Shown: positions 1 through 47,264 of the stretch, one piece after another
Layout: each line of letters opens with the position of its first letter
How positions within the stretch are numbered: position 1 is the first letter of the stretch
Source: Zanthoxylum bungeanum
Lineage: Eukaryota > Streptophyta > Magnoliopsida > Sapindales > Rutaceae
Direction of reading: 5' to 3'
NCBI GenBank assembly: GCA_019454045.1
Contig: SKCR01038129.1
Coordinates: 1-64,000 of the forward strand
DNA: 64,000 nt
The notes under the pieces: model-generated
What the model was told of the DNA's origin: nothing
What the model saw: only the letters and a program-made list of their open reading frames with translations
The model's database searches: none
Made by a program: the position numbers and the translations under genes

Positions 1-2231
1 CTGTTAGCCCTATTCATGGTGAAGTTAGTGGGCCCATATCTAGCTAGGCTAGATGTGAACATGAATATTTCGTGACCTTAACGAATGTGGCATCACGTTA
101 TGGTTATGTGTTTCTTTTGAAGAACACAGATCGGAAACCTTTTGAAGTTTCGACACGAAGTATATAAACAGATCGGCTATAGTATTATTCCGCCACGGTT
201 AGACCGTAATGGAAATTACTTAAGCAGTAAGTTTCATACGTACATGAAAGAGTATAGTATTCTTTCATATGAGGACTCCTCCCGAGACACGTCAGTTAGA
301 CGGTGTGTCCGAACTAAAAACCAAATTTTGTTGGACATGATAAGGTTTGTCACGAGTCGCTCTGAGCTACTATTTCCTTCTACAGGACATGTATTAACAG
401 TGCAAAACTTATTTAGAATAAGGTTCCATATAAATCTGTTTGACAGATATCATATAGGATATGAACAGGAAAGAAACGGGGTTTCTCATTCCTGATAATT
501 TGGGTGTGCCAGGCATAACGTTTGGTTTATACCAAACTAAGACCCAAATTGGATAAGTGCCAATATAGGTTATCCTAAGGGAAACCTTAAGTATAGTACT
601 TGTAAATCCCACATGAGAACAATGTAATTGTTGCTCACCATGCGGTTTTCCTGAGAGGAATACCGATATGCAGTGGTCAGTGGGAGGATAGTGATACTCG
701 ATGAAAATCGGAGTAACACTGTTCAAGGCACGAAGTCCTTAATGGAACACAAATAGTTCATCTATGATGAATCTATACCATTAATCTTCAAATACACAAG
801 AACTTAGTAGATCGGATAGAGTCAGAAAACAACCTAGGGTATGGGTTTCTGATCTCGCCCCATGAAGATGTCAATCTTATGGAGGTGTACCATCCGACTA
901 CGTTTAGAGGAAGTGATACGAGATATCGACTCCCTGTTATGGCAAAGTGCCATTGATCCGAAATGGATTTCATGTATAACAACTATTTTGGATACTAGTT
1001 GTTGTACCACAAGGCATTGTGCCTATTGGTACATTAAACGTCTTCAAGGAAGACATACATGGAAGGCAACATACCAACGTACAAAGCTGGGCTTTTGACG
1101 GAAATGTATCGTTATCAACATTGTGTTAATAACGGTTCAACCTTTTACCTGTTGCCATGGTAAATCCATTTTGAAGATGCTTGATGATAACTGTATATTT
1201 CATTTATGAAATGTGTCAGTTACAGATCAAAATCGCTTTCATGAAAAGGAAACCTTTTGGAGAATGTTTATAACATTCTGACGATTTTGTATAACCGACA
1301 AACAAGGTTTGCGGGTTATTCGATCCATGTTTGGATCATTGCAAGCATAAGGTTCTTGAAACTGACGTTTTGAAATAATCATAATGGTTTATGATTTGAC
1401 TCAAAACGAAATAATTCTTGTGTATATAAGGAGGTTAGTGGGAGAGCGCACTAACAGTGAAATTCCCATAATACAATGGAAAGCTTGGCTTTCATAGATA
1501 TTCTTTCAATAGAAATTCTCTCGTAGAATTCTGGGGAGTAACAACCTTTATTCAAGGAATAAAGATCTACTGGGATAGATTTGGAGTTGTTAACACTCTC
1601 TGGGAAATCGTACATTTAAAATGTACTTGTATTGGTGTCTCATACGCTTCAAGCATATGGAGTCACAATCGGGTTAATCCAAGTGATAGTCACTGGATTA
1701 AAGATTAAGAACATCTGTTAGTATCTTGAGAACTAAAGATGCTGTCTTAAACTATGGAGAAGAAAACTTGAAGTGACTGGGATCACCGCTACAAGTTTCC
1801 AAATGATTAAATACTACGGTACTATAAAGTTTGAATAACGGGACAGTGAGCTGGAAATATTCCAAGCAAGATAACTGTTGCCGAATAAACAACAAATACG
1901 GATACGGATTATTGCTGCAGCTGAGGCAGCAAAAGAAGCCATTTGGATCGAACATAAATCTAATTAGATTAGATATAGTTCTGTTAGCAGCTGAACTAGG
2001 TGTCAGCACAGGCTAAGGAATTAAAGGTCTCATCGACGATCCAGATATATACTTCTATATCATCTGATTCGTTCGGATCATACATCGTGGCGATGTGATG
2101 ATCGTGTAAATCACGTCAGACGATAATCGGAACAAATCCGCTGACGAAAACCTTTCCTCAGCATTTGAGCGAACCTACATAGTTCAAGTGTTGGAACACT
2201 TGAGTGACTCGCTACGTGCCAAGTGGGAGAT
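1..2231 (+). pseudogene. Decayed Copia pol region (integrase to RNase H), subfamily S1
   Basis: This is the 3' half of a Copia internal region; the element starts left of the window. It aligns by eye, in the same order, with the better preserved pol at 43069-46150: integrase core near 1-400, the linker and first RT part near 780-1120, and the RNase H end near 1830-2020, where the peptide NNGTVSWKYSKQ is still readable. No frame stays open for more than about 115 codons and stops are dense. The catalytic RT box is missing: the sequence jumps near 1440-1470. It shares a specific RNase H deletion (about 1990-2015) with three other copies in the window. The match to Copia is clear; no product can be made. 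Confidence 0.85.
2221..2230 (+). other. Polypurine tract of Copia element
   Basis: AAGTGGGAGA followed by TT and the LTR start TGTTGG. The same tract precedes every Copia 3' LTR in the window. In the family it primes plus-strand DNA synthesis. Confidence 0.85.
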
Positions 2232-3290
2232 TGTTGGATAATATGACCCATAGCGTCACTATTTGCACAGATCATTGTGTTGCTGTAGTAAATTAACTAT
2301 GTAACAAGGAAATTGCACTCTCATCATTTGTGATTAGATCACCATAGATATATAAATGAAGAGAGGTCCCTATGATTAGTTCCTAGATTGAGATGATATG
2401 AGACAGTATCAGTCCACGAAGGATTAATCATTAAATATCCCTAGCCGTAGTATTATCGAGACTGGACATCGATAATGCGGAATAGGCTAGTATTGCACTT
2501 GTGCGCGTTGTGAGGGCACAACGGCATAGTTCTCATATATATAAGTGTTGGAGACTTATGCAAGTGCGATAGGAGGTCGTGTTTCACACGATGGTACGGG
2601 AAACAGCTTCGCTCTGGATAGACCCCTCGGAATCCCATTGGTATTATGACTATGTGTCTATGGGAGGCCGAAGTCAAGGTAGGTGTGTATAGTCTTAACC
2701 TGAGACTTGCATCGCTAATACTTACGATATCGATAAACTTTGGTTTTGGTGGTTGGGGACCCTGACCAGGTTCTGTGTCTACCACTTCTGGGTTTATCAG
2801 AGAGTCGTAGAGTATTGGGTGTGATGTCGAGACGGAAGTATCACTCCAGTCATATTGGAGATGATGTCACGCAGGATACGGTATTAGTGCTCTTAAGTGA
2901 TGTGCATCCAATCGTGATATTATGACCAGGTCATGAATATCCGATTATAGAGACTAGTTACCAGACATCCGATATGTGTTTCGGACGGGGCAGACACTTA
3001 TCCAGCCCCAGCCCTAACACGTGACTATCCGATACTGGGCCGATGCGCACAATACGATTGTATACTACGCTTGATATAGATCTAAATATTCTTAAAAGGA
3101 TATGTCCGGAAAATTGGGTAGACTTGGTACTTTGCTAGGAGTAGACCTTGTCTCGTAAATCGGTAGAACGTAGTACTTGGTACGTACGTGATTCGGTTAC
3201 ACCGACGACCGTATTTACTGCCAAATTATCTGGAGATCTCATGGGTCGCTTCCCGATAATGCACCGATGACGCATAACTCGCACTCATTA

Positions 3291-3565
3291 ATAATCTGGG
3301 ATTATACAGAAGAAAGAGAAAATTAATCTGGGATTAATTACGGAGATATTTTATCTCGGATAAAATATCGTCTAAAGAGAGAGAATGTTTAATTTAGAAT
3401 TAATCGATTAAATTAATATATTCGATATATTAAACAAAATTAGATTTTAATTCGGGCGAACGAATTAATTTAGAATTAATTCGTTAGCGATGTGAATAGT
3501 GAATTCGCTAGGCGTGATCACTTAATTGCGACGCGACGGAAAAATCGTTAATTTAGAATTAACGA
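3291..3565 (+). other. Chain of eight triloop palindromes in LTR U3
   Basis: Eight inverted repeats, each with a 3-base centre. H1 3291-3305 (ATAATC/GATTAT), H2 3321-3339 (AATTAATC/GATTAATT), H3 3345-3369 (11-bp arms GATATTTTATC), H4 3389-3403, H5 3413-3433 (TTAATATAT), H6 3436-3448, H7 3461-3483 (10-bp arms CGAATTAATT), H8 3545-3565 (9-bp arms TCGTTAATT). Spacers are tgg, tgg, tcg, tag, tcg, tag, tag, tag. Equivalent chains lie at 6129-6426, 23124-23424, 31126-31426, 41773-42017, 49834-50102, 61000-61186 and 61947-62263. Confidence 0.85.
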
Positions 3566-3881
3566 ACCCGAGCCCGAGTGTGATTGCGAGCGCATTCGTA
3601 TTTAGAATTCGAGTGCGGCGACGCAAGTCACATCAAGCGTCAAATCAATCGTCACATCAAGCGTCAAATCAAGCGTCACTTTGAGTGATGTGACATTTGA
3701 TTGATTGATGTGAGTGATTGATTGATTGAAAAGACTTGACACATGACATAAAGTGGATTTGACTTGAATGACATGTGAATAGTGATGTAAGTAGGTGAAA
3801 TAGTAAATTGTGAAGACTTTTACCATTTAATTTATTAGATAAATGTTTTGGTAATTGTTTTTAATATATTTTCTAGGAAAA

Positions 3882-3890
3882 TATATAAAG
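3882..3890 (+). promoter_or_regulatory. LTR TATA box
   Basis: TATATAAAG about 440 bases before the LTR end. The same box occurs at the matching place in the LTRs at 22070 (23722-23732) and 30082 (about 31726-31736). It is followed by CT-rich sequence as expected at a plant transcription start. The role as the element promoter is inferred from position and conservation. Confidence 0.55.
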
Positions 3891-4324
3891 CATTTTGGTA
3901 AATGGTTTACCAAGTCTTCTCACAATTTTTCATCTCCTTCTCTCTCACTTATCTCACGCCCAAGGGGCCATATTTCTTCTTCTGTAACAGCTCAAAACCG
4001 TGAGCTTAGGGGAAGCAATGAGTGACTTTCATTTGATGAAATCAAGTGCTAGCACACTTGCGAACATTGCGAAGGTGTTAGGGAGGTTCACCCATGAGGC
4101 GGGACTCATCCGACGAAGTTTGGAGCTCCGTTTTGAGATCCGAAACTGCCAAGACAGTGAGCATGGACTGCAGTGAATGGCGCCACTTGACAGTGAGTTT
4201 TTGGCTTCGATTCGCCTCCAAATCGACTCAACCGATCGATGTGAGTATTCCGCTACCTCCGTTGATGTGTTCACACATGATTTCATGCATTGATTTGATC
4301 TTGGGACCTAATAGAAACTCAACA

Positions 4325-5400: not shown

Positions 5401-7481
5401 TGTTGGTTTAAATCTAGGTCCCAAGATCATAACAAGCATGAAAAACAAGTGTGAATACATCAAAGGAGATAGCAGAATACTCACATCGATCGGTTGAGAC
5501 GAATTGATGAAGAACAAAAATGATTTTGGTCCTTCAAAGTCACGCCCACTGCATGCAGTCCACCGCTCAAAAATTTCAATTTTGAGTCTTCAAGAATCCA
5601 AGAAACCAAGCTCCAAGCTTCGTCATTTGATTCCCGGCTCATGGGTGGGTTCCCTAACACCTTCGTATGCTTCTTAAGTGTGCTAGCAGCTTGAGTTTTT
5701 CCACAAAACCCAATAATTTCTTCCCATTGCTCACTGTTTTTGAGCAAACCAGAAACTGAAAAATGCCCTAAGGGCGTGAGGAAGAAAGAGAATAGGAGAG
5801 AGAGAGAGTTGTGTTAAATTGATACAAATGTGTAAATCATTTACTATATATATATTTTCTAAATAAATAAAATGATTTACCATTTAATTTAACTTCCAAA
5901 AAGTCAAATTAATCAACTTTAAACACTTTGAGTGTTCCACACTCAAGCATCAAAATCCATCAAGTCATATCAACTTTAAAAAAGTGACATGTTGTCAAGT
6001 CACATCACTCAAAGTGACAAGTGATTTGATGCTTGATGCGACTAATGATTTGACGCTTGATGTGATTTGCGTGTCGCATTCAAATTTGAAATGCGAATGC
6101 GCTCGCAATCACTCTCGGGCTCGAGTTCGCTAATTCCTAATTAGCAAATTTTCCGTTGCGTCGTAATTAAATGATTACGCCTAGTGAATTCACTATTCAT
6201 GTCGCTAACGAATTAATTCTAAATTAATTCGTTCCCCCGAATTAAAATCTAATTTTAATTCCGCGTCGAAATCCACTTTCGTTTAATATATCAAATATAT
6301 TAATTTACCGATTAATTCCAAATTAATCGTTTTCTCTCTTCAGATGATATTTTATCCCAGATAAAATATCTCCGTAATTAATCCCAGATTAACTTTCTCT
6401 CTCTACTAATTAATCCCAGATTAATTTAGAGTGCGAGTCATACGTCATTGGTGAATCATTGGGAAGCGACCCATGAGATCCCCAGATATGTTGGCACTAA
6501 ATACGGTCGTCGGACTATCCGAACACGTACGTACCAAGTACTACGTTTTACCGATTCACAAGACAAGGTTAGCTTCTAGCAAAGCGCCATGCCTACCCAA
6601 TTCTCCGGAAATATCCGTACAGGAATATGTGATCTATATCAGGCGTAGTATACATCGTATAGTGTATATCGGTCCAGTATCGGATGGTCACGTGCTGGGC
6701 CTGGGGCTTGAGTTGTGTCTGCCCTGTACGAAGCACATGTCGGATGTCTGGTAACTAGTCTCTATAATCAGATATACATGACCTAGTCATAATATCCCGA
6801 TGGCCGCGCAGCACTTAAGAGCACTAATACCGTATCCTGCGTGACATCATCTCCAATATGACTAGAATGATACTTCCGTCTTGACATCACACCCAATACT
6901 CTACGATTCTCAATATACCTAGTATCGGCGTACACATAACCGGTTAAAGCCCTGGATGACCTCAACCAAAGTATATTGATTGTCGTAAGTATTAGCGGTG
7001 CAAGTCTCAGGTTAAAACCAAATACACCTACCCTGATGTCGGACTCCCATAGACACATAGTCAAACTACCAATGGGATTCCGAGGGGGTCTATCCAGAGC
7101 GAATCTGTTTCCCGTACCATCGGTGAAACACAACCTCCTACTACACTTGCATGAGTATCATATACCCAAATATATGAGAACTATGCCGTTGTGCCCTCAC
7201 AACGCGCACAAGTGCAATACTAGTCTTTTACTTATTTATCAATGTCCAATCTCGATAATACTCTGACTAGGGATTTTTAATGATTTATCCTTCGTTGATT
7301 GATACTGTCTCATATCATTCTCAATCAAGGAACAAATCATAAGGACCTCCTATCATTTATATATCTAAGGTGATCTAATCACAAATGATAAGAGAGAAAT
7401 CTCCTTTGTCACATAGTTAATTTGTACAACAACACCATGATCTGTACAAATAGTGACACTATGGGTCATAACTGTCTAACA
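5401..7481 (-). repeat. Copia 3' LTR, subfamily S1 (2081 bp, minus strand)
   Basis: The plus-strand text runs from TGTTGGTTTAAATCTAGGTC to GTCATAACTGTCTAACA, the reverse complement of the LTR at 2232-4324. A polypurine tract on the minus strand borders it at 7482-7492. The palindrome chain is at 6129-6426 and includes 11-bp arms at 6345-6369 and 10-bp arms with a 3-base centre. The left flank CCATA would be the target duplication, but the other end of the element is missing. Confidence 0.9.
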
Positions 7482-12557: not shown

Positions 12558-13254
12558 AAAAATACAGTGTCTACAGTTGCCCCTACTTTGATGGGGCTTC
12601 TGCAGTGTGTGACAGTGACAACCCTATCAAAGTTATGGATGCATTTTTTTTACTTAAGTGGCTTGTCGGCTGTCGTACTTACCTGCTGCTTTGCAAGATG
12701 CTTGGAACTGAGTTGATCTGGTGGTGAGGTGCTTGACCCCTGGTTCATTCCCAAACTGTTACTTGAGAGGTGGTCCATTCTTCTAGAGGAGTTGCTTGTC
12801 CCCATTCCCGAGATTATGCTTCATTCCCAGAGCGCCATTCCCGGCTTGCTCATCCTCATTCTCGAGGAGTTGCTTGTCCTAATTCCCGAGGTTAAGCTCC
12901 ATTCCTGGAGCACCATTCCCAGCTTGCTCATCTTCATTCCCGAGGAGTTACTTTGTAAGAGGTGGTCCATTCCTGAACCATTACTTTGTGAAAGGTGGTC
13001 CATTCCCGAACCGTTACTGTATTAGAGGTGGTCCATTCCTTAATCGTTACTTTATGACAAGTGGTCCATTCCCGAACCGTTACTTTGTGAAAAATGGTCC
13101 ATTCCCAGACTGTTACTGTATGAGAGGTGATCTATTCCCGAACCATTACTTTATAAGAGATGATCCATTCCCGAACCGTTACTTTATGAGAGATGGTCCA
13201 TTCCCGAACCGTTACTTTATGAGAGGTGGTCCATTCCCGAATCATTAATGATGT
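12558..13254 (+). repeat. Segment D, copy 1: CATTCCCG repeats and 33-bp minisatellite
   Basis: After about 180 bases of unique sequence the core CATTCCCGA recurs. At 12790-12960 it sits in longer, irregular units. From 12964 to 13254 a strict 33-bp unit (GGTCCATTCCCGAACCGTTA plus 13 bases) is repeated nine times; GGTCC-type starts fall at 12964, 12997, 13030, 13063, 13096, 13129, 13162, 13195 and 13228. Because 33 is a multiple of three, the array is open in several frames with an 11-residue repeat. I see no start context or homology that would make it a gene. Confidence 0.85.
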
Positions 13255-13322
13255 AAATGGTTCATTCCCGAACCGTTACTGATGTGAGATGCTTCGATCT
13301 CCGAGATTCATTCCCAAACTAA

Positions 13323-13612
13323 GTTGATAATGTGGGCCTCGACCCTGGGATTCATTACCCACATTGTTGATAATGTGGGCCTCGACCCTGGAATTCATTC
13401 CCGAAACTGCTGATGATGTGGGCCTCGACCCTAGGATTCATTCCTGAAATTACTGATAATATGGGCCTCGACCTTGGGATTCATTCCCGAAACTGCTGAT
13501 GATTTGGGCCTCGACCATGGGATTCATTCCCAAAACTACTTATAGTGTGGGCCTTGACCCTGGGATTCATTCCCAAAACTGCTTATAGTGTGGGCCTCGA
13601 CCATGGGATTCA
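13323..13612 (+). repeat. 43-bp minisatellite, copy 1 (seven units)
   Basis: Units carrying TGTGGGCCTCGACCCTGGGA followed by TTCATTCCC. The GGGCCT starts fall at 13334, 13377, 13420, 13463, 13506, 13549 and 13592, exactly 43 bases apart each time. It follows the 33-bp array. The CATTCCC core is common to both arrays, so they probably arose from one ancestral word. Confidence 0.9.
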
Positions 13613-14740
13613 AAGTGTGTGTGTGTGTGTAAGAGTTCATTCACAACTTGATTTCCTGGTAAGCCAACTCAATGATTTCATTTCAAAAATTGGGATCGAT
13701 GGGTCAAACCAACCTAGATGTCTTAATTATGCTCTGCAATTGCTTTTCTGTGCTCAATATGTTATGATTTTCTTTTTCTTTTTCTTTTGTCTCTTCCTTT
13801 CTTTTTTTTTTGGGCACACCTACCGTTTAAGGTAGCATTTCTCCTCATAGTGGTCCTAATACTCGCCCATGGGTAGCTTCACGCTTATCAGTTATATGTG
13901 GTTTATTTTTTTTAGAGACTTTTCTTTTATCTGCAACCATACCACACATCATAACACAAGCAAATCAGGATAGACATCTAAGTAAATGGTCATTCATCGA
14001 CTTGAAATTTCTTCAAGTAGTCACCTTGTCGACTACTCAGGTTTTCACTACTAAGAACCCATAATAAAGTGCTTACGAGTCTAACATAGATCAATCACTC
14101 AAAGTACCACATATCATAACACAAGCAAATCAGGATAGATATCTAAGCAAATGGTCATTCATCGACCTGTAATTTCTTCAACTAGTCACCTTGTCGACTA
14201 ATTAGGTTTTCATTACTAAGAACCCATAATGAAGTGCTTACGAGTCTAACATATATCAATCACTCAAAGTATAGGATAAAAGTTTATTAAAGAGCTTATC
14301 ATTTCTAAGATTTCACCCTAAAGCAAACAATATCATCATTGGACTTATGACTAACTATAATAGACTAAAAACAAATAATTTTTTTCTTTTTTTTTATTTT
14401 TGCTGAAAATCCCCCAATGGTCTTTCTATTCTTACCGTAAAATTTTCTGTTTCTCGGCTTCCTCTTCCCCGATATCCATGTTTACTAAACTCTTTTTGAC
14501 AAGTCTTTTTTCTCTCTAACCCAACATATATCTATGATGGCTTTTAAAACACGGGGTTAACATGATTCGTGTATGCATGTGATTATCAAAACAGCATATC
14601 CGACCTTATTCCTCCCGCACTCATGGTAAGTCCATTTTTACTTTTGCGGTAAGGTGGCTAAACAACCTCAAATGATAGGAGGCCCAAACAAAAAATGTCC
14701 CTTTACTATTTTGAAAACTTTTGGCGCAATCATCATAAGT
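13605..14740 (+). repeat. Segment B, copy 1
   Basis: Non-coding. It starts at AAAGTGTGTGTG, has a short GT run (13617-13630) and CT-rich tracts, and matches 32620-33490 and 33917-34020. Two differences from copy 2: a 165-bp tandem duplication here (13941-14105 repeated from 14106), and loss of about 430 bases between GTAAGTCCATTT and ACTTTTGCGG near 14640. No gene recognised. Confidence 0.7.
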
Positions 14741-14749: not shown

Positions 14750-17016
14750 TGTTGGGATGTATGCCCTATAGCTACATGTGATGTAAACAGTTTTATGTGT
14801 TTTGAAATAAAACGATGCATTATTCATTTATCAAAATGAGTGTCATACATAAGAGGATTTAAGTTTGAAGTTAGTAATCTTAAATAGTCCATAGAGAGCA
14901 AACAAGGCGGGTACTTTGTTTATAGTTTATCTATAGTCGCGGTCTATTCTATATTTGTATGGCGACCTTGATCCGGGATCGTCCATGTAGAGACATGAGA
15001 ATGGAGGCACCTTGTATGATGTGATCATATAGGACTTGACCCAGATGGAAATGACATTCTTATAATATCCGTTAAACTAAGAAAGTTATTTCGATCTACT
15101 AGATGGTTATATATGGATTGATCTTAATCCTGAGTGTACTACGAACTCTTGCATGGTAGGGCATGTCCTTTGATTTACAAAGGTGAGGTTGATGTAGCAG
15201 TCCCGGCCAATAGCTACGTATTTTGGGGGCATGGTCTGTTATGTAGCTGGGAACGTTTTACATAGACATGAAGTTCACTCCTTCTTGCGAGAAGTAGATG
15301 AGTATCTTTCTTAAGAGTTGATTCGGTGTTTGAACGATTTGAGCGCTCAAGTCTTTCTGTTACGAATAGAAAGATTAAAATTAATAATGGTTATGAATAA
15401 ATCGTTCATTAAAGAATCAATGGTACTTAAGGTAAAAATGATTAGAGGGGTATAATGGACATTATGACCCGACTCTAATTACGAGATACTCGTGAAGGGT
15501 CAATTCGTATGTAATGACTATATCGATGGATACCGACTTGGTTCGGCTTAATATATCATCTGCAGTAACGAGAGTGCAACTTCAGGTTTTTAGTGAAATA
15601 ACCCGGAGTTAATAATTCGGAATATTTAATTAAGAGCTTAATTAATATTTCAAGATTATTGGAGCTCGGAACCGTAGGTCCATTTGGTCCCCGTGCTAGC
15701 TCAATTTACTCTAACGGATTTAGTATAATTGGATAGTCCAATTATATACTCACAACGGTATAAATATTATTAATATGATTAATAATATTAATTATGTCAC
15801 ACTTGGAACTATATATTAAAAGTTAATATATGATTAATATAATAAATAATTATATGATAATTATTTATTGTTAATAATTAAATTATATATGATATAATTT
15901 AAATGAAGCCTAAACTTGGAAATCCCAAAGTTTGGGTTTTGGACTTGACATTATTTTGGAAGTTACACTATTTAATTGGATGTCAAATATTCAATTTTGT
16001 AACATATATTTTCTTTATGGAAAGTTAATATAATTGTTACAAAATTAATGGAAAAATAATGCTATGGCCGATTCTTGTATATGGTTGGAAGGGAAAAGTT
16101 TTGTTTTATTTTGGAAAATAAAACCCTTAACTTAATTTTGGTGGTTACACTTTTTGAATGGTAATCACAACTTTAATTTTGTAACATTTTTTCCTTTATG
16201 ATAATTGAATTTAGTGTTACAAAATTAAATCAAATTCCCTTGCTTGGTCGATTATTACACATGAAGAATATGAAGGGATTTGTTTTTTTTTTTTGGAAAC
16301 AAATAACCCTAGGTATAAAAAGAAAATTTTATTTTACTTTTGCCTACTATATCATTCTTGAAAAACCCTAGCCTCCATCTTATTCTTTATTCTCTCTCAA
16401 TTGTTGAGAAAAGAAAAAAACAAAAACAAGAACAAAAATAAGAAAATATTATTGTGACAAGCTTCTCTAAAGTGTTTATAGATTTAATATGTGTGAGTCA
16501 AGCCCACACTTGTTTCCGTTGGTTGTGAGATATAGCACGAAAGATCTTATGGTTTCGAATGAAAAAAATTCATCTCCTCGATTCGTCTTTGATTCATAGC
16601 AGTGACGGTAATTTTCCTCACTGCCGCATCTTGCTATAAAGGGATTTCGGGGTTGAATTTGTTTTAATCCGAACTTTTGGGAAACACTTGGTGACTTTTT
16701 GGGGCTGAGTTGGGACTATTTTTTGAGTGAAAAATCAAACCTAAAACATCACAGCAGGTCATGCAAATCAGGGGCTGTTTTCGGTACAATTCGGTTGCGT
16801 AACGGGTCCAAAACAATCAGTTATTTCACTGTAGTTCGGGGGACTATTCGGGGACTTTTTCCGGGGAATTACATGGCTGAAATCTTGTCCGAAATAGAAG
16901 CAAATTTTCAGTATACCTGCTGGCCAGATTCGGTAACTTAAAGGGAAGGGCAGAAAAAATTTTCAAGTCCGATCCATGAGCCTAAACCACTTCCTCTGTG
17001 CGAGGAAAGTGTTTCA
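14750..17016 (+). mobile_element. Probable solo LTR (Angela-like start) inserted in segment B/C
   Basis: Starts TGTTGGGATGTATGCCCTAT and ends GTGTTTCA, so the termini are TG and CA. Length 2267 bp. The start resembles plant Angela LTRs. It contains a TATA-like GGTATAAAAAG (16311-16321) and no coding region over 80 codons. Its edges are fixed by comparison with the empty site in the other repeat copy. The duplicated flank looks like 9 bp, not the 5 bp usual for Copia and Gypsy elements, so a non-TIR Mutator-like element is an alternative. Confidence 0.55.
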
Positions 17017-20633: not shown

Positions 20634-21311
20634 GTCACCCCCACTTTGATTGGGCTTGTGCAGTGTGTGACAGTGACAACCCTATCAAAGTTATGCATGC
20701 ATATTTTTAACTTACCTGGCTTCTTTGTGAGAGGCTTCGAACTGAGTTGATCTGGTGGTGAGGTGCTTGATCCATGGTTCATTCCAGAACCGTTACTGAG
20801 TTGAGGTGGTTCATTCCCGAACCATTACTTGAGAGGTGGTCCATTCCCGAACCGTTCTCCATTTCCGTAGTGTCATTCCTGGCTTGCTCATCCTCATTCC
20901 CGAGGAGTTGCTCATCCCTATTCTCGAGGTTATGCTCCATTCCCGGAGCGTCATTCCTGGCTTTCTCATCATCATTCTTGAGCAGTTGTTTATCCTCATT
21001 CCCGACATTATGCTCAATTCTTGGAGCGCCATTCCCCGGCTTGCTCATCCTCATTCCCGATGAGTTACTTTGTGAGAGGTGGTCCATTCCTGAACTGTTA
21101 CTTTGTGAAAGGTGGTCCATTCCCGAACCGTTACTGTATAAGAGGTAGTCTATTCTCGAACTGTTACATTGTGAAAGGTGGTCCATTTTCAAAATGTTAC
21201 TGTATGAGAGTTGGTCTATTCTCGAACCGTTACTTTATGAGAGGCGAGCTATTCCAGAATCGTTACTTTATGAGAGGTGGTCCATTCTCGAATCGTTACT
21301 GATGTGAGATG
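20634..21311 (+). repeat. Segment D, copy 2: CATTCCCG repeats and 33-bp minisatellite
   Basis: Same layout as 12558-13254. The strict 33-bp phase is visible from 21081 (21081, 21114, 21147, 21180, 21213, 21246, 21279), seven units; the first part (20770-21060) holds longer irregular units. Unit sequence has diverged (GGTCCATTC, AGTCTATTC, GAGCTATTC) but spacing has not. Confidence 0.85.
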
Positions 21312-21342
21312 CTTCGATCTCCGGGATTCATTCCCAAACTGA

Positions 21343-21740
21343 GTTGATAATGTGGGCCTCAACCCTGGGATTCATTCCCCACATTGTTGATAATGTGGGC
21401 CTCAACCCTGGGATTCATTCCCGAAACTATTGATGATGTGGCCCTTGATCATAGGATTCATTCCCGAAACTGCTGATAATGTGGGCATCGACCTTGGGAT
21501 TCATTCCCAAAACTGCTGATGATTTGGGCCTCGACCATGGGATTCATTCCCAAAACTGCTTATAGTGTGGGCCTCGACCCTGGGATTCATTCCCAAAACT
21601 GCTGATAATGTGGGCCTCGACCCTGAGGTTCATTGCCAAAACTGCTGATTGTGTGGGCCTCGACCCTGGGATTCATTCCTAAAACTATTGATTGTATGAG
21701 CCTCGACCCTGTAATTCATTCCGAAAACTGCTGATAGTGT
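21343..21740 (+). repeat. 43-bp minisatellite, copy 2 (nine units)
   Basis: GGGCCT-type starts at 21354, 21397, 21440, 21483, 21526, 21569, 21612, 21655 and 21698, exactly 43 bases apart. There are two units more than in copy 1, so unit number has changed while the period has stayed fixed. Confidence 0.9.
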
Positions 21741-22064
21741 GAGTGGTGAGGCACTTCGCCCCTACTTGTCCTCATTCCCGAGGTTGCTCTCCATTCCATG
21801 AGTTCATCATCACCTTTTCTTTTTCATCAAAGCCTGCGAACACAAAACAAAAATTGTATGTATATGACGTGTATACATGGATGCATTCCCTATTCCGATT
21901 GGTTAGGCCTTCCTTGTGCTCTTTGGTGCCCTTTGCCTATAAATGTCTTTGGTCGCCCCATGAGTCTGCTTACAATTTTCTTCTACCGGTTCTCTTTTGG
22001 TGATTGCTTAGTTCTCCTTGGTCCCATGGCTCAAGATCTCATTATGTCCTTGATTCGCGAGGTG
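21741..22064 (+). other. Segment E, left part (present only in second macro-unit)
   Basis: Sequence between the 43-bp array and the inserted Copia element; it continues at 32217-32619 beyond that element. It is missing from the first macro-unit. A TATA-like CCTATAAATG is at 21937-21946. An ATG at 22027 opens a frame of 17 codons that would run across the insertion site and stop. I recognise no gene. Confidence 0.45.
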
Positions 22065-22069: not shown

Positions 22070-23123
22070 TGTTGGACAATTATGACCCATAGCGTCACTA
22101 TTTGTACAGATCACGGTGTTGTTGTACAAATTAACTATGTAATAAAGGAGATTGCACTCTTATCATTTGTGATTAGATCACCTAGATGTATAAATAATGA
22201 GAGGTCCCTATGATTTGTTCCTGGATGGAGAATGATATGAGACAGTATCAGTCCCCGAAGGATAAATCATTAAATATCCCTAGTCAGAGTATTATCGAGA
22301 TTAGACATCGATAAATACGTAAAAGACTAGTATTACACTTGTGCGCGTTTGTGAGGGCACAACGGCATAGTTCTCATATATTTGGGTATATGATACTCAC
22401 GCAAGTGTAATAGGAGGTTGTGTTTTGCCGATGGTACGGGAAACAGCTTCGCTCTAGATTGACCCCGCGGAATCCCATTAGTAGTATGACTATGTGTCTA
22501 TGGGAGTCTGCAATCAGGGTAGGTGTATTTGGTCTTAACCTGAGACTTGCATCGCTAATACTTACTATAATCGATATACTTTAGTTGAGGTTGTCCAGGG
22601 CTTTAACCGGTTCTGTGTACGCTAATTCTGGGTATATTGAGAATCGTAGTGTGTTGGGTGTGATATCAAGACAGAAGTATCACTCCAGTCATAGTGGAGA
22701 TGACGGTCACGTAGGATACGAAACTCGTTCTCTTAAATGCTCGAGCTATCGGGATATTATGACTAGGTCATGTATATCCGATTATAGAGACTAGTTACCA
22801 GACATCTGATATGTGCTTCGTACGGGGCATACACATTTCCAGCCCCAGGCCTAGCACGTGATCATCCGATACTGGACAGAAATACACAATACTTCGGTAT
22901 ACTACGCTTGATATAGATCATATATTCCTGTAAGGATATTTTCGGAGAATTGGGTAGACATGGTGCTTTGCTAGAAGCCAACCTTGTCTTGTAAATCGGT
23001 ATAAATGTGGTACAAGGTACTTACGTGTTCGGATAGTCCGACGACCGTATTTACTGCCAACATATTCAGGGATCTCATGGGTCGCTTCCCAAAGATTCAC
23101 CGATGATGTATGACTCGCACTGA

Positions 23124-23424
23124 AATTAATCTGGGATTAATTCGATGAGAGAGAAAATTAATCTGGGATTAATTACGGAGATATTTTATCTAGGATAAAA
23201 TATTAATAAAAGAGAGAGAACGATTAATTTGGAATTAATCGATAAAATAATATATTCGATATATTATACGAAATTGGATTTCGACGCGGAATTAAAATTA
23301 GATTTTAATACGGGCGAACGAATTAATTTAGAATTAATTCGTAAGCGACGTGAACAGTGATTTCGCTAGGCGTAATCATTTAATTGCGACGCGACGAAAA
23401 ATTCGTTAATTTGGAATTAGCGAA
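23124..23424 (+). other. Triloop palindrome chain, LTR copy at 22070
   Basis: Arms and centres include AATTAATC-tgg (23124), ATATTTTATC-tag (about 23181), CGATTAATT-tgg (23221-23241), TAATATAT-tcg (23248-23266), GAATTAAAAT-tag (23289-23311), CGAATTAATT-tag (23319-23341) and TTCGTTAATT-tgg (23402-23424). The last one has one T opposite G, a wobble pair in sense RNA. Confidence 0.85.
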
Positions 23425-23721
23425 CCCGAGCCCGAGAGTGATTGCGAGCGCATTCGCATTTCGAATTTGAGCGCGGCACGCAAGTCACATCAAGCGTCAA
23501 ATCGCTAGTCGCATCAATTGTCAAATCACTTGTCACTGTGAGTGATGTGATGTGACATGACATGTTGTCACTTTATAAAGTGACTTGATGTGAATAGAAA
23601 AAGGTGATGGGAATAAAGGTGAAAGGACTTGTACTTTTGCTTTTTGCTTTTTCCATTTGACTTTTGATTTAAGTTTAATATATGTTTTATTTATTTACTT
23701 GGTAAATGTTTTAAAATAAAA

Positions 23722-23732
23722 TATATATAAAG
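23722..23732 (+). promoter_or_regulatory. LTR TATA box
   Basis: TATATATAAAG followed by a CT-rich stretch (TTATTCTCTATCTCCTCC). It is in the same place as in the other S1 LTRs. The RNA start is expected about 25-35 bases downstream. Confidence 0.6.
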
Positions 23733-24208
23733 CTTTTATTCTCTATCTCCTCCAAGGATTGCTCACGTTTTTGACAAACTTTTGGAGCAAAATTGCTCTA
23801 TCTCTCTCGGCCTTGGAGGCCTTTTCTTCATTATTTTTCTGGTTCAGAAACCGTGAAAGTGAGGAAGAAATGAATGATTTTGTTGCAAGATCTAAGTGCT
23901 AGCACACTCTAGGAGACATACAAGGTGATAGGGAAGTGAGTTTGTGAGCATGGAAAAGCTTGAAGCTTGGAGCTTCAATGGTGATGACCATGGCCGAATC
24001 TTGGAGGTGCTTCAACACTCAAAACCGACCACTCTACTGCCTTGGAAGAGCCTTGGCCGAACCTCCAACAAAGAAGAAAAGGAAGATCTTCTTTGGTGCA
24101 TCCAAACCAATCATTGTGAGTATATGTTTCCGCCATTATTCCTTGATGTATTCATACGAATTTTATACTTGATTTCATGATCTTGGGACCTATATTAGAA
24201 ACCAACAA

Positions 24209-24222
24209 TTGTATCTATGAGC
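24209..24222 (+). other. Degenerate tRNA-Met primer binding site
   Basis: TTGTATCTATGAGC directly after the 5' LTR. The matching site of the S2 element reads TGGTATCATGGAGC (minus strand, 49217-49230), close to the usual TGGTATCAGAGC. Several changes suggest weakened priming or decay after insertion. Confidence 0.6.
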
Positions 24223-26050
24223 TTAGTTCAAGCATGAAAAAGTTAGGGTTAAAATTGGGTAAACTCAATTTGAGCATCAAATGGTTAAATTGTTTGATAT
24301 AGTATGCTTGAATGAGGTTGAATTGATGTTGTGCATGATCAATTTCAAGAAATTTGGTTGGATCCATTTTTTTCCCAAATTTGGGCATGACAAATTGGGT
24401 AAAATCAATTGAAGCATGATTGGTTTGATTGATTATTGATTAGTATGCTTATATGTTGATGAATTGAAGTTGTGTATGTTCAATTTCATGAAATTGGATT
24501 GGATCCATTTTTCCCCAAATTTTGTGTTGGCCAAAATTGACAAATTGGGTAAACTTGATTTTGAGCATGTTTGATGAAATTGGATGATTTAGAATGCTTA
24601 AAGTATGTTAATTGAGGATTGATTGGATCAATTTGATGAAAATTAGTTGGGAACAATTTTCCCCAAATTGCTTATGTTGGCCGAATACATATAGCCCATA
24701 TTGTCTTGGAATTTTTTGATTTTTGAACATTGGATGTGTTGGAAATCATTAGGGAATATGATTTAATGTCGATTGTGAAATTAATTGGATTGAATTCGAA
24801 TCGGACGTAAAATCCCCAAATTGCCTAGAGACTTTAAAGCATGTAAAATGGGTTTGATTTTAATAAATTGTGTTGGACACTATTTGTTGTTAAAGTGCAT
24901 GATTAATTATGCTAATTGATGTTTTAGAAATGTTAATTGGGTAATTAATTATGTATTACACTTAGGTTAATTAATCATGGAATTTGGAATTTTATAAGTT
25001 AATTAATTGGGCTTGTTTTTGGAAATTGGGCCTCATAGGTTGTAATTGGGCTTTTGGGCTTTGTTGTACAAAGTTGGGTTTAGGCAAAATTGGTTGGATC
25101 CAATTAGGCCCAAAACCGCATCCATAAAGTCCAATTATGACTTAATGGACCTTAATTATTTAATTGGGCCTAATAGGCCAAAATTAATTTAAAGGCTTAT
25201 GGGGTAACTCCCGGATTGGATTTTGGTTATCGGTTTGACCCGAGTTGACCAAAAGTCCACGCCTTAAGAAATTAATTAAAAGCCCATTGGACTTTAATTA
25301 AATAAACGTTGGACGTTAATTGGGCTTTGAGTCCCATAACGATTGAATTTGGAATTTAAATCGTAGAAGGTTCGTTAATAAAAATGTAATATTTAATTTG
25401 GAATTAAATAGTGAATTAGAATTAAATGCATATTAAATTGGATTTAATTATGTAGTTTAATTTAATTCGAGAATTCATACTTTGAGTACTTATTCGCAAA
25501 ACGAGTTTGACTCGAGCAAAAATCAAATCGTTGTCTGAACATTGGATGATCACTAATTATCAGATTAATTAATTGGATTAGATTGATTGATAACATGCTT
25601 GTATGAATACATGGTTGCGATGCATGAATAATGTATATCGGATGGATATTAGTCGGGTGGGATAATTTTGGAAATTGTAATAAATTTGATTTATTAATTG
25701 GACCTGCGTGTCCAGCCTTATCACCTCTACACTCTTGTATTCTCTTCTCACCTATTCCCCTCAATGTAAATGAGGTTTCTTTAGAAGTGTAGTGTAACGG
25801 GTAGAAATAAATACATGTGCTAGCTTTGGAGAGAGAAAATTAGAGATTTGATCTAGAATCAATGTAAAGTATCCATCCGCATATCATTATTATTTTATTT
25901 CATATGCGCTTTATTATGTGTTTAGAATGCATGTTTAATGGTGTATGATGATGAGACCTTAACAAAGATAATAAATTGGTTGTCAATTTGCACGCGAAAA
26001 ACCCCTCAAATAATATTAAGCATCTTTCCTTCCATTGAGTGATTCTTACT
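24223..26050 (+). other. Long leader of S1 element with threefold tandem unit
   Basis: AT-rich, no gene on the plus strand. CAAATTGGGTAAA-type starts recur near 24253, 24391 and 24540, a degenerate tandem of about 140-150 bp. The S2 element has only one such unit (about 49060-49200). At 25000-25340 about eight TGGGCC/TGGGCT words (either strand) are clustered, as in the S2 leader at 48410-48730. Confidence 0.6.
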
Positions 26051-26053
26051 CAA

Positions 26054-26300
26054 GATCTAAGATGGCATTGGTTTGTTGGCCAAGTCAAGGCCTTTGTCTG
26101 TCGAAGATGTGTTTGAATCACGAAAGCTTTGTTCCATATCAGTGTCTTGTCCAAGTTGTGGTTTGTTGGCCAAAGTCAAGACCACTTCTTGTCCATCGAC
26201 ATTGATTACGAAGCTTTCCATGGTCAATGGGTCGCGCTTGACTGGGATCACTAAGTTTGTTGTGCCAAAGCCAAGGCTTAGTTGATTCAGATGAAAAAGG
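26054..26300 (-). other. Antisense open frame in S1 leader
   Basis: On the strand opposite to the element, a frame of at least 64 codons (26057-26251, extending upstream in frame) reads like the frame at 47379-47696 of the S2 element. Shared stretches include KRDPLT, ESFVI, VDGQEV, LTLANK and TDMEQSF. I recognise no protein family. By eye there are about 13 replacement and 8 silent differences between the two, close to what drift gives, so protein-level selection is not shown. Confidence 0.45.
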
Positions 26301-26408
26301 TTAGGTAATACATTAGATGTACCAATTGATCTTAGAGATCTACCTAGTTAATTATCATACAATTTGTTGGCCAAAGTCAAGATTGTGTGATATTTAACAG
26401 GATCCTAG

Positions 26409-26474
26409 CCCACTACGAAACACGGTTTCCCGAGTACTCGACAGAGGGTTAGAGGCTCGCCGAAAAATAGTGGG
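26409..26474 (+). other. Conserved leader stem-loop upstream of gag
   Basis: CCCACTA (26409-26415) and TAGTGGG (26468-26474) enclose the palindrome CGAGTACTCG (26431-26440). It is the sense-strand counterpart of 11136-11201. The inner hairpin reads CGAAAC-acg-GTTTCC, with one pair lost. Confidence 0.6.
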
Positions 26475-26479
26475 AGGCA

Positions 26480-27470
26480 AGAATTGAATTTGCAATACTC
26501 GTTCAATTACTCGCCATACGCGCTCATTCAAATTATTTCGTCGTTAGATTAAATGTTAGTTGGACTAATATTTAAATTGTTGTTTTAATAAAAACAGTTG
26601 GACTGTATTATAGTTGATTATATATAATTGGATTATATTAATCAATATATTTGAATTAATTAATTTCAGTTTACAGTTGATTTTATAATTGGATTATAGT
26701 AATCAATGTAATTGAGGTTAATTAATTTAAATTATATTTGATTATATAGTTGGACTATTATGATCATTATAATCAATAGTACCACAAATCGTTGATTAAA
26801 TAGTTGGACTATTAGAATCAAGATAGAAATGAAAGATTAGTGTTTAAAACATAATCCTGGGTGAAAATGTATTTAAACGACTTTAATTTTCAAATTAGGA
26901 ATAATTTCAAGATGGTCTTGGAAATTAATAAGTTATTTTATTTGATAAAATAATGAATTATGCCTAAAGCCTGGAGTTAAGCAAATAAGTGGAATATGAA
27001 ATTTGGAATATTCATATAATGATAACTTTAGCACTTAATCCATTAAGCTTGTCGAAGTAGACTCCTTAATTTCTGAATCAGAATTAAGGATTAGATCCTT
27101 AAAGTATGATAATGAAATTGAAGGATTTTCATGGATCTATTTTAGATCTTTGAAATACTAAATTGCAATAAATAATTCTTGGAGAATTAATGTCTATTCT
27201 CAAGGAGACAAAGTCAAACTTTGCAAGTAGGCAAGTAGCGCAAGGCGCACCTTACTTCGATATTCTAGAAACCCGAGGCTTGGCCAAAGGCTACTGGAAT
27301 GTTAAAATTGGCAAAGGCAAAATCATTATAATCTTTTGGGAAGATAAAAGGATATATCCTAAGAAGGAATTGAAGACGAGCAAGGCTCTTACTTCAAATA
27401 TATTTGTCATAATTATGTTCACAACTAGTATTGAAATTGGATTTTAAATACTTAGTGTGATACATAAATA
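26480..27470 (+). pseudogene. Gag remnant of S1 element
   Basis: It begins with an AT-rich degenerate tandem (about 26545-26830; words like AATAGTCCAACTATTTAATC in either orientation). A stretch that aligns with the S2 gag near 46440-46500 follows: ATGTCTATTCTCAAGGAGAC, then CAAGGCGCACCTTACTTCGA. An 85-codon frame (27190-27447) begins MSILKET but departs from Gag quickly. No zinc knuckle is left. Confidence 0.6.
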
Positions 27471-30070
27471 TGTACTGTTGTGCAGAATCTGCTTTAAGCA
27501 TAATACTGACTTCAGACGAGATTACTCTGCGAATTGAAAACGGGACTCGCTGTTTTAACCGTAGATACCTAAGTTTAGGAACTGCCCTTCGGGTGTGTAC
27601 TTAAATTAGGAAACTGTTAAAATGTAACTAGTTTGACTAGAAACATTATCTCTATATCGCGTATAACCCGTTGCGGGTGTACCTTTATATTCTAGAACAC
27701 TAAAGTGTTTTATTATATAAATATGATATTGAGATAAACACATTAGATGTGAATAACAACATTTATATTTTGAATATAAACAATATCAATATCTCAAATA
27801 TATAACATGACAAATAAATAGCTCAAACTGATTTGATCAGAAGAAACTAATTGTGGAATTGTTGTCTGTGACACAATCAAACAAGACTCGTATATCCACA
27901 CTTTCGAAGAGTGGGTACTAGGACTAATTTGATTCCATTCAAATAAAGTCTACGAATCTAGTTTATTGGGCAAAGTGCCTATAGCACTATTTACTTGGTA
28001 AAAGTGTAAATGCCACTGATCTGTTAGCCCTAGTTCATAGTGAAGCAAGTGGACCCATGTCTAGCTAGGCTAGAGGTGGATATGAATATTTCGTGACCTG
28101 TACGGATGTGGCATCGCGTTATGGTTATGTGTTTCTTTTAAAACACAAATCAGAAACTTTCACAGTTTTGACACGAAATAGACAAACAGATCAACTAAAG
28201 TATTAAACCGTCACGGTAAAACCGTAATGAAAATACTTAAGCAGTAAGTTTCTCGTATACTTGAAAGAGTATAGTATTCTTTCAATGAGGACTCCTCCCG
28301 GAACACGTCAGTTTGACGGTGTGTCCGAACAAAATTAACCGATTTTTGTTAGACATAATAAGGTTAATCACGAGTCGCTCTGAGCTACCATTTCCTTCAA
28401 CAGATAAGCTTTAAACAGTGCAAGAACTTATTTTGAATAAGGTTCCATAATAATCTGTTTGACAGATATCATATTAGATATGAACGGGAAAGAAACCAGG
28501 TTTCTCATTCCTGACCATTTGGGCATGCTTGACATATGTTTGGATGATACCAAACTAAAACCCAAATAGGATAAGTGCCAATTGTAGGTCATCCTAGGGA
28601 TACCATAAGTATTGTACTTATACATCTCACATGAGAACAATTAGATTGTTGCTCACCATGTGGTTTTCCTGAAAAGGAATACCGATATGCAGTGATAAGT
28701 TGGAGAATAGTATAACTCGATGGAAATCGGAGTAATAATGTTCAAGGCACCGAATCTTAATGGAACATGAATAGTTCATCAAGAATGCAACTATGACCAT
28801 TAATCTTCGAATACACAAGAACCGCGTAAGTCGGATAGAGTCAGAAAACAACCTGGGGTATGGGTTTCTGATCTCACCTCATAAAGATGGCTATCTTATT
28901 GAGGAATACCAACTGACTACGTATAAGGAAGTGATACAAGGTATCAACTCCCTAATTATGGCAAAGTGCCATATAATCCAAAATGGATTCCGTGTATATC
29001 AACCAGTTTGGATACTAGTTGAAGTACCACAAGGCATTGTGCCTATTGGTACTATAAGTCTTCAAGGAAGACGTACATGGATGGCAATATACCAACGTGT
29101 AAAGCTAGGCCTTTAACGGAAAGGTATCGTTATCAACATTATGTTGATTATGATTCAACATTTTACCTGTTGCCACGGTAAATCCATTTGGATAATGCTT
29201 GTTATTCGATCAATGATTGGATTGAAGCAAGCATTAGGTTCTTGGAATTATCATTTTAATGTAATCATAATGATTTATGATTTAATTCAAAAACGAAAAC
29301 GATTCTTGTGTAAATAAGAGGGTTAGTGGGAGCGCACTGACAGTGGCTGTCCTATAAAATAATGATAATATGTCATTTCTTGGAAATGATATTCCCATAA
29401 AATAAATATCGGCGAAAGCTTAGCTTTCGAAATACTCTCCGTGGAACCGTACATTGAAAAATGTACAAGACCTGGTGTATCATACGCTTTGAGCATATGG
29501 ATTCACAAACAGGCTAATCCGAGTGATAGTCATTGGATTGGTGTGAGGAACATCGTTAGTATCTTAGAGAACTAAGGATGCTGTCTTAGTCTATGGAGAA
29601 GGAGAAATTGAAGTGACTGGGGTCACTGTAGCAAGTTTCCTATAACCGATAAAGACAACTAAAAGTCGCAAATGGTATTATACAGTTTGAATAACGGTGC
29701 AGTGAGCTGGAAATCTTCCAAGCAAGATACTGTTACCGAATAAACAACTAATGCGGGTTAATTGCAGCAGCTGAGGCAGCAATAGAAGTCATTTGGGTCG
29801 ATACATATCTAATTAGATTAGATATAGTTCTGTTAGCAGCTGAGCTAGGCATCAGCACAGGCTAAAGAATTAATGGTCTCATCAATGATCCATATACATA
29901 CTTACGTATTCATCTGATTCGTTCGAATCATACATCGTGGCGATGTGATGATCGAATAAATCGCATCAAGATGATAATCATGCAAATCCGCTGACGAAAG
30001 CTTTTCTCAGCAATTTGAGCCAACCGTACATAGTTCGGGTGTCAAAGACTCGAGTGACTGGCTATAGGCC
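27471..30070 (+). pseudogene. Pol remnant of S1 element
   Basis: Collinear with the S2 pol (43069-46150). Protease/integrase remnants lie at 27471-28400, the linker and RT at 28780-29460, RNase H at 29560-29900. The RT active-site region reads as several stops in a row (about 29350-29375). The RNase H end lacks the block that in S2 encodes the YYDNNGA stretch (near 29850). Longest frame 107 codons (28793-29116). Both lesions are shared with 5401-11287. Confidence 0.8.
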
Positions 30071-30080
30071 AAGTGGGAGA
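30071..30080 (+). other. Polypurine tract
   Basis: AAGTGGGAGA, then T and the 3' LTR. Confidence 0.85.
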
Positions 30081-30081
30081 T

Positions 30082-44870: not shown

Positions 44871-45035
44871 ATTTAGGAATTCCTTCTCTAGGAAAACCGC
44901 ATGTACAGCAACAAATACTTTGTTCTCTTATGGGTGATAGAAGTAATATCCTTTGGTTTCCCTATGATATCATATGAATAGGCATTTATCTGATTTGGGT
45001 TGAAGTCTGGTACCTTCCAAACGTTTGACATATGC

Positions 45036-46150: not shown

Positions 46151-46159
46151 GAAGTAGAC

Positions 46160-47031: not shown

Positions 47032-47198
47032 TTTAATTACGATAATCCAATTATTCAATTAACAATGTTTTGGGTACAGTCTAACTGTTAAAAGAAAAAT
47101 AAAATTATATTAGTCCAACTAATAGTATAATTGACGAAATAATTTGAAAGCGCGTAAAGCTAAGTATTTGAACGAAATTGCAAATTCAATACTAGCCT

Positions 47199-47264
47199 CC
47201 CACTATTTTTCGGCGAGCCTCTAACCCTCTGTTGAGTACTTGGGAAACCTAGTTTCCTAGTGGG
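47199..47264 (-). other. Conserved leader stem-loop upstream of gag
   Basis: CCCACTA (47199-47205) and TAGTGGG (47258-47264) enclose a hairpin GGAAAC-cta-GTTTCC. Loop bases differ from the S1 copy at 11136-11201 (cgt) while the stem is unchanged. The 10-base palindrome has decayed here to TGAGTACTTG. Confidence 0.6.

Follow-up and report, generated by a model that had tools for sequence, protein, structure and literature searches.

The chain of triloop palindromes in the long terminal repeat (LTR) of a Copia retrotransposon of Zanthoxylum bungeanum appears to be the densest cluster of stem-loops dispersed along the sense RNA of the element. It is very probable that these hairpins have been selected as RNA stem-loops of the sense strand. 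The reading tentatively preferred here, judging from the sequence, is that they serve as recognition sites with a G at the 3' end of the loop, most likely for Gag.

The window, i.e., the whole stretch of 64,000 nucleotides analyzed, belongs to a genome of 3.96 Gb in 51,709 contigs. Similarity to Copia pol (12–2214, plus strand) is situated just 5' of the 3' LTR harboring the chain (Table 1). The chain lies ~260–590 bases 5' of the TATA-like sequence ATATATAAAG, presumably a part of the promoter, which overlaps an extra T-N-G hairpin at 3864–3886. The CpG observed/expected ratio amounts to 3.06 in the AT-rich array (3291–3620) vs. 1.02 and 0.78 elsewhere in the LTR. Between the array and the TATA-like box (3640–3735), CGTCA/ATCAA repeat units followed by inverted copies (TGATGTGA...) are seen by eye, possibly representing TGACG-type promoter motifs. 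The Pfam domains in the family A pieces of another stretch of the genome (L045, minus strand) come in the order Retrotran_gag_2, gag_pre-integrs with rve, then RVT_2, i.e., a Copia-type gag and an integrase ahead of the RVT_2 reverse transcriptase, as in Ty1/copia elements. In the window, Pol_BBD passed the curated cut-off and RVT_2 fell short of it; a search of the window against Rfam at the gathering score returned no matches.

Table 1. Position and strand of the hairpins, array copies, and element parts in the window (arms in bases; WC, Watson–Crick).
Feature	Position	Strand	Description
3' LTR of a Copia family A copy	2232–4324	+	Contains the chain; start, end, and polypurine tract located
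Polypurine tract AGTGGGAG	2222–2229	+	Ahead of the LTR 2232–4324
TATA-like ATATATAAAG	3881–3890	+	~260 bases 3' of H8
H1	3291–3305	+	Arms 6, loop TGG; WC in 98% of 249 cells (46-copy alignment)
H2	3321–3339	+	Arms 8, loop TGG
H3	3345–3369	+	Arms 11, loop TCG; other copies TGG or TAG
H4	3389–3403	+	Arms 6, loop TAG; other copies TGG or CGG
H5	3413–3433	+	Arms 9, loop TCG; tree-inferred double changes: five
H5b	3436–3448	+	Arms 5 here, 8–10 in several other copies; loop TAG
H6	3456–3488	+	Perfect arms of 12 (15 if one mismatch is allowed), loop TAG; tree-inferred double changes: none
H7	3545–3565	+	Arms 9, loop TAG; tree-inferred double changes: four
H8	3592–3616	+	Just beyond the end (3565) of the range in the earlier note; imperfect arms of 11; loop TAG
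Array copy	6126–6426	-	8 hairpins
Array copy, 5' LTR of element 22070–32211	23124–23424	+	9 hairpins
Array copy, 3' LTR of element 22070–32211	31126–31343	+	7 hairpins
Array copy	41851–42019	-	5 hairpins
Array copy	49878–50102	-	7 hairpins
Array copy	61000–61188	+	5 hairpins
Array copy	61947–62140	-	6 hairpins; two more palindromes to 62264 with centre T-N-T
Array of a different LTR	15724–15902	+	6 hairpins, loops TAG ATG AAG ATG TTG ATG
Internal region, family A element	24208–30064	+	T-N-G hairpins (score at least 6): 33 sense, 2 antisense
Internal region, another family A element	43074–49048	-	T-N-G hairpins (score at least 6): 20 sense, 2 antisense

The segment 3291–3640 harbors nine perfect inverted repeats with a three-base centre and arms of 5–12 bases; eight of the centres read T-N-G and one, overlapping, reads TTT. 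For arms of at least 5, dinucleotide-shuffled sequence gave a mean of 0.51 such repeats and none of 1000 shuffles reached nine; for arms of at least 7, five were found vs. 0.05 in the shuffles. Spacers 0–2 and 4–10 in this segment were near chance. The arms are AT-rich and differ from hairpin to hairpin, the loop being the part in common. In H8, the loop reads TCG in 34 of 46 aligned copies, and only 79% of the cells are Watson–Crick. The chain claimed in the earlier note is thus real, and the test proposed there for refuting it, that shuffled LTR sequence would give as many palindromes, left it standing. It was also recovered in every LTR copy named in that note, each time on the strand of its element, including the weakest one (41773–42017), which retains four perfect palindromes with arms of at least 6.

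A preference for the three-base centre extends to the whole window: for arms of at least 7, spacer 3 accounts for 102 inverted repeats vs. 5–19 for each of the other spacers from 0 to 10, the shuffled means being 4–7 per spacer. A good part of these 102 palindromes is internal to the elements, so the placement of the chain inside the LTRs is correct for the dense array and too narrow for the hairpins in general. Twenty other stretches of the genome (L031–L050, 200 kb) were drawn non-randomly, 13 of them from contigs with a match to family A and seven picked by number. In these stretches, 230 palindromes had spacer 3, compared with 31–82 for other spacers and 12–22 after shuffling; 130 of the 230 were located in sequence resembling the window; the remainder still comprised 100 with spacer 3 vs. 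22–73. Chance in AT-rich sequence is ruled out by the shuffles of the segment 3291–3640, of the window, and of L031–L050.

As for the composition of the centre, T-N-G was flanked by paired arms at 121 per 10,000 sites when both strands of the 264 kb were pooled, vs. 5–24 for the other unpaired classes (a 5- to 24-fold difference). The closing pair is preferentially pyrimidine–purine (T-A 634, C-G 491, A-T 172, and G-C 151 per 10,000). Sense orientation was assigned by similarity to an element, and 108 of the 264 kb could be turned in this way. Among the spacer-3 palindromes of the turned part (arms of at least 7), T-N-G occurred 201 times and C-N-A once, with the proviso that the orientation references of family B had been picked by their T-N-G strand; for family A and L041, the reference strand matches that of pol. 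The same set includes 54 other centres, e.g., A-N-G (23) and T-N-T (14). The earlier description of the centre as mostly T-N-G needs the correction that T-N-G is the centre read on the sense strand of the element. In the unturned part, 38 of 76 spacer-3 palindromes were T-N-G or C-N-A, suggesting that not every bearer has been identified.

The strand bias was further documented by a scan tolerating G-U pairs (Watson–Crick pair +1, G-U 0). With few exceptions, the 2-kb bins of the window turned out to be nearly pure in strand, tracking the direction of each Copia copy; many family A bins held 4–10 hairpins per 2 kb vs. 0.06 in one shuffle set, and the scan found none at 16–22 kb or 32–40 kb of the window, the sites of other repeats. 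In seven internal pieces of family A, sense T-N-G hairpins reached 2.3–6.2 per kb, with 0–2 antisense in each. The array is the densest part, with 26 T-N-G hairpins per kb, and the LTR stretch before it has no T-N-G hairpin in 1.05 kb.

When loops T-N-G, G-N-G, and A-N-G with a score of at least 7 were tallied, the sense/antisense counts were 219/2 in 59 kb for family A and 57/1 in 22 kb for family B, the copies within each being related and hence not independent; L034 and L040 gave 10/1 and 8/0, respectively. The controls comprised the Gypsy part of L047, the window outside Copia family A, and L033, L035, L046, and L049. They yielded 16/6 in 75 kb (“sense” being here the plus strand), of which 9/0 came from 11.3–22 kb of the window, where the array at 15.7 kb is located; L046 ends in a Copia-type gag. 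No T-N-G hairpin was found in the Gypsy stretches of the same host (6.7 kb and 1.0 kb). Over nine little-overlapping regions, two of them of family B, 250 sense stems were counted vs. 28 antisense ones. Hairpins were also seen in stretches with no element assigned (eight on one strand at 6–8 kb of L042 and four at 0–4 kb of L034). A host-wide mutational habit was rejected, as the Gypsy stretch tested and most other controls are near background, and the dispersal of the hairpins together with the strand rule led to the rejection of binding sites symmetric in double-stranded DNA as the whole story. Folding energy failed as a test of strand (z of -3.5 for sense and -4.7 for antisense) and showed no preference for the sense strand.

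Comparison of the copies revealed which loop positions are held. In the array, copies differ in 37% of comparisons at the second loop base, 8.7% at the first, and 11% at the third, the stems and flanks differing in 5% and 15.5%, respectively. Outside the array, the corresponding values are 33% (second), 20% (first), and 6.5% (third), with 8–12% for stems and 16% for flanks. Thus, the last base is held everywhere, the first is held in the array, and the middle one is free. The favored first base depends on the lineage: T in families A and B, and G in L051 and L054 (see below).

The array alignment included 46 copies out of 47 pieces (8 from the window, 29 genome loci, and 10 from L031–L050). 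The search for family A in the genome returned 30 loci, one of which is the window copy already included, and the one piece removed (L043, at 9196) had no perfect palindromes. In this alignment, 3127 of the 3417 cells of the 80 pairs in nine hairpins are Watson–Crick. Tree parsimony inferred 14 changes from one Watson–Crick pair to another vs. 0–2 when the partners were slid by 1–3 columns, so the arms do not drift independently, which was the other outcome that the earlier note had named as damaging to its claim. Watson–Crick pairs turned into G-U 40 times and into A-C 18 times, with the opposite trend in H8 (A-C 9 vs. G-U 3). The slid controls also lean toward G-U, 2:1 when summed; this lean is inherited through shared substituted columns, making the G-U test weak inside the array alone.

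The pairwise counts, in which HSPs above 93% identity or below 200 columns and gapped stems were excluded, point in the same direction, although they overstate independence because the copies are related. In T-N-G stems, 10.7% of cells changed, 24.5% of the changes were double and Watson–Crick, and the GU:AC ratio was 394:122. For random complementary pairs outside palindromes, the same quantities were 31.8%, 5.3%, and 3188:2685; for palindromes with spacers 4–10, 17.0%, 11.6%, and 295:112; for other three-base centres, 17.0%, 17.7%, and 122:42. The excess of G-U and the double changes are therefore not unique to T-N-G stems: other hairpins of the element RNA may be kept too, or the G-U lean may be partly general. 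Outside the array, T-N-G stems showed 61 double changes out of 241 and a GU:AC ratio of 70:32. In the nine regions, G-U outnumbered A-C 61 to 18 (binomial p ~4e-5 against 0.543 from random pairs), the ratio for other centres being 44:28.

The two LTRs of the family A element 22070–32211 are 96.0% identical, and the array differs by 4.7% vs. 3.4–3.7% for the remaining LTR. In this pair the array is not better kept than its surroundings, which suggests a constraint exerted prior to insertion. Four putative LTR pairs showed six stem changes, none of them double, which is the direction expected for decay after insertion, though the changes are few.

A scan of contigs of prokaryote genomes with a reverse transcriptase (RT) alignment gave five Copia stretches (L051–L055), labeled as Streptomyces (two), Solirubrobacter (two), and uncultured Trichormus; scans of viral contigs for Copia found none. 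The G+C content of 36–40% makes plant contamination the simplest reading, and these stretches are probably of that origin. L051, with an RT 77% identical to that of L034, gave a sense/antisense count of 18/1 (sense loops: 11 G-N-G and 7 T-N-G) and carries a cluster of stems of 9–15 pairs at 6257–6619, 3' of its RT. L054 gave 35/2 over G-N-G, T-N-G, and A-N-G, its long repeats being counted twice. For arms of at least 7, 16 of its 18 spacer-4 palindromes have loops ending in G (AGAG seven, TGAG, TGTG, and TTTG two each, and others), spacer 3 giving 19. L052, L053, and L055 are nearly free of hairpins (0/1, 2/0, and 0/0, respectively). In an RT tree restricted to the loci of this analysis and rooted with L055 as the outgroup, the topology alone places L052 and L053 among the hairpin bearers; this suggests an ancient trait of the clade with at least one loss, or a patchy spread.

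A second type of LTR with an array of its own occurs in the window (15600–15905, plus strand); the stretch adjoining it looks, by eye, like the L051 LTR.

On the preferred reading, a clade of plant Copia would carry stem-loops along its sense RNA, with ~6–15 pairs and a minimal loop ending in G: mostly U-N-G in this genome, and G-N-G, U-N-G, A-N-G, and four-base loops ending in G in the relatives. A protein would read the exposed 3' loop G on its stem. The element's own Gag is the likeliest, if uncertain, candidate reader, by analogy with retroviral nucleocapsid: its CCHC zinc knuckle might grip the loop G as the nucleocapsid knuckles do. With many weak sites per genomic RNA, co-assembly could become selective in the manner of dispersed packaging signals, the LTR array, presumably near the RNA 3' end, being the strongest cluster. 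Such a scheme would require a folding single-stranded sense nucleic acid, a reader needing G at the loop end, and an advantage in the element's own cycle. As dispersed signals should, many stem-loops with a common loop motif do line the genomic RNA and extend into its coding parts. A CCHC pattern was detected in the Gag of family A copies (at 46281 of the window and in L043) and of L051, L053, and L055, with a Pfam zf-CCHC match in L051; the strict pattern was not found in the bearers L054, L034, L041, and L045, all of them incomplete or decayed copies. L053 and L055 possess the knuckle and no hairpins; having a knuckle does not by itself require hairpins. A protein-binding array and a structured 3' end of the RNA had been among the proposals of the earlier note; the RNA side of such a structured, protein-binding array agrees with the sense-strand loop rule, the compensated pairs, and the G-U excess, and the binding is putative.

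A reader other than Gag, of host or Pol origin, would serve RNA stability, nuclear export, localization, translation, or escape from small-RNA silencing. This alternative is not the likely one, but the evidence for selected sense-strand stem-loops is neutral as to the reader. In addition, hairpin density peaks in the LTR array, a position close to the 3' end of the RNA provided that the TATA-like box acts as the promoter. A host reader is at odds with the lack of T-N-G hairpins in the Gypsy stretches examined from this genome, and the dependence of the first loop base on the element lineage fits an element-encoded reader somewhat better. Pairing of two genomic RNAs through self-complementary arms, in which facing U-N-G loops would form two G-U pairs around one mismatch, is the least probable of the explanations weighed here. 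The dominance of T-N-G in this genome speaks for it, as does the yeast Ty1 RNA, which dimerizes via kissing loops (PMC5454406), but this mode of pairing would not be open to the G-N-G and A-N-G loops of L051, L054, and the array at 15724–15902, or to most of the four-base loops in L054.

At the DNA level, the array might be a set of cis-regulatory palindromes bound by dimeric transcription factors 5' of the TATA box, as for the Sirevirus repeats. Its location and high CpG ratio, and the same position of the Sirevirus repeats in the LTR (PMC2829016), are in line with this; nevertheless, internal regions are also full of hairpins, the arms are unlike between hairpins, the loop rule is strand-specific, and compensated changes occur within the arms, so we consider this explanation improbable. 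A comparably low probability is assigned to hairpin-templated mutation, also raised in the earlier note, in which nascent cDNA folds back via a minimal loop and copies its own arm. The smallest hairpin loop is of three bases, the process would yield both perfect arms and double changes, and the bearers found are reverse-transcribed elements. Still, it should erase G-U pairs by converting them to Watson–Crick ones, whereas G-U exceeds A-C (61:18), and it does not explain why loop bases 1 and 3 are held and base 2 is free. Furthermore, the Gypsy stretches and the Copia elements L052 and L053 lack the hairpins though they use reverse transcriptase as well.

The hairpins have known counterparts, each of them partial. 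The claim of the earlier note that no LTR module of this kind had been described must be withdrawn, since arrays of palindromic repeats 5' of the TATA box have been published for Sireviruses. According to the available part of that report, these RM boxes comprise at least eight copies of one palindrome per element, situated 5' of the TATA box and forming CpG islands, with a CGG-CCG core in all but one element; they occupy the LTR and also, where an element has env, the linker, for the most part ahead of env; classic Copia is reported there to lack them (PMC2829016). The maize RM motif, CACCGGACNNNGTCCGGTG, is given with a three-base centre (PMC10760457), and the Sirevirus LTR palindromes are hotspots of small-RNA mapping in maize (PMC5311732). 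The array described here resembles them in its CpG richness, in grouping short palindromes within a long Copia LTR, and in its place 5' of a TATA-like box; unlike the RM boxes, its arms differ and are AT-rich, the loop is the common part, and the hairpins run through the gag-pol of a classic-type Copia.

Sirevirus membership itself was rejected on three tests. The Sirevirus polypurine octamer AGGGGGAG, expected in several copies before the 3' LTR, was absent from both strands of the element 22070–32211, which has AGTGGGAG at its 3' LTR (30072) and two further copies at 26469 and 29325. There is nearly no linker between pol and the 3' LTR (long in Sireviruses, 1.5 kb on average), for similarity to the open piece of L045 after RVT_2 ends at 30064, the polypurine tract lies at 30072, and the LTR starts at 30082. 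A single RM motif with a CGG-CCG core was not found either, the arms of the array being AT-rich and unlike. When a minimal three-base loop was imposed on the RM consensuses (PMC2829016, Table 3, re-read), 5 of 13 read C-N-G (Osr10, HOPIE, OPIE-2, PREM-2, and Osr8), two of the five being identical; the odd-length consensuses of Sorghum, Inga, and Barbara are not C-N-G. This re-reading is only a lead.

Dispersed RNA packaging signals have been proposed for several RNA viruses (PMC6281560) and for hepatitis B virus (PMC7612645). As presented in the available text of these sources, they share with the Copia hairpins the pattern of many degenerate stem-loops with a short loop motif in common, and the RGAG motif of hepatitis B virus also ends in G; they differ in that recognition by the coat protein is reported there and conjectured here, and the loops here are mostly minimal, of three bases. 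Retroviral CCHC knuckles are described as burying a G of the HIV-1 SL3 GGAG and SL2 GGUG loops and of the MoMuLV UCUG linker (PMC7599994), which parallels the candidate grip of a knuckle on the last G of a short loop. Unlike the hairpins described here, those sites are located in the 5' leader and not by tens along the RNA, and HIV-1 has two knuckles. According to the same source, replacement of the HIV-1 SL3 loop had no significant effect on packaging, which counts against the Gag reading. In the open-licence literature searched, no description was found of sense-strand, element-wide hairpins in LTR retrotransposons, nor any paper naming both Copia and triloops. LTR palindrome arrays and dispersed stem-loops with a loop motif are known kinds; new are sense-strand loop-G hairpins, unlike in their arms, that continue through coding sequence.

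More speculatively, and with considerable doubt, a clade of plant Copia elements could mark its genomic RNA with tens of Gag-read hairpins ending in a loop G as packaging signals; the code would then drift from lineage to lineage, and the LTR palindromes of Sireviruses would be its C-N-G branch. To our knowledge, it is little understood how plant LTR retrotransposons select their own RNA among the transcripts of the cell. A simple hairpin rule, recognizable in sequence and specific for strand and lineage, would make this selection directly testable, since it predicts the part of the protein that binds, the critical base of the loop, and the elements that cross-package. The hairpins also offer an RNA-level reading of the Sirevirus LTR palindromes and a sequence signature for the transcribed strand of decayed Copia fragments.

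Also observed in the window are fragments of a hAT transposase (zf-BED, RNase-H fold, and dimerization region) at 52622–54582 on the plus strand and minisatellite arrays with 33- and 43-base spacing, located in two related repeats, at 12852–13643 and 20969–21792.
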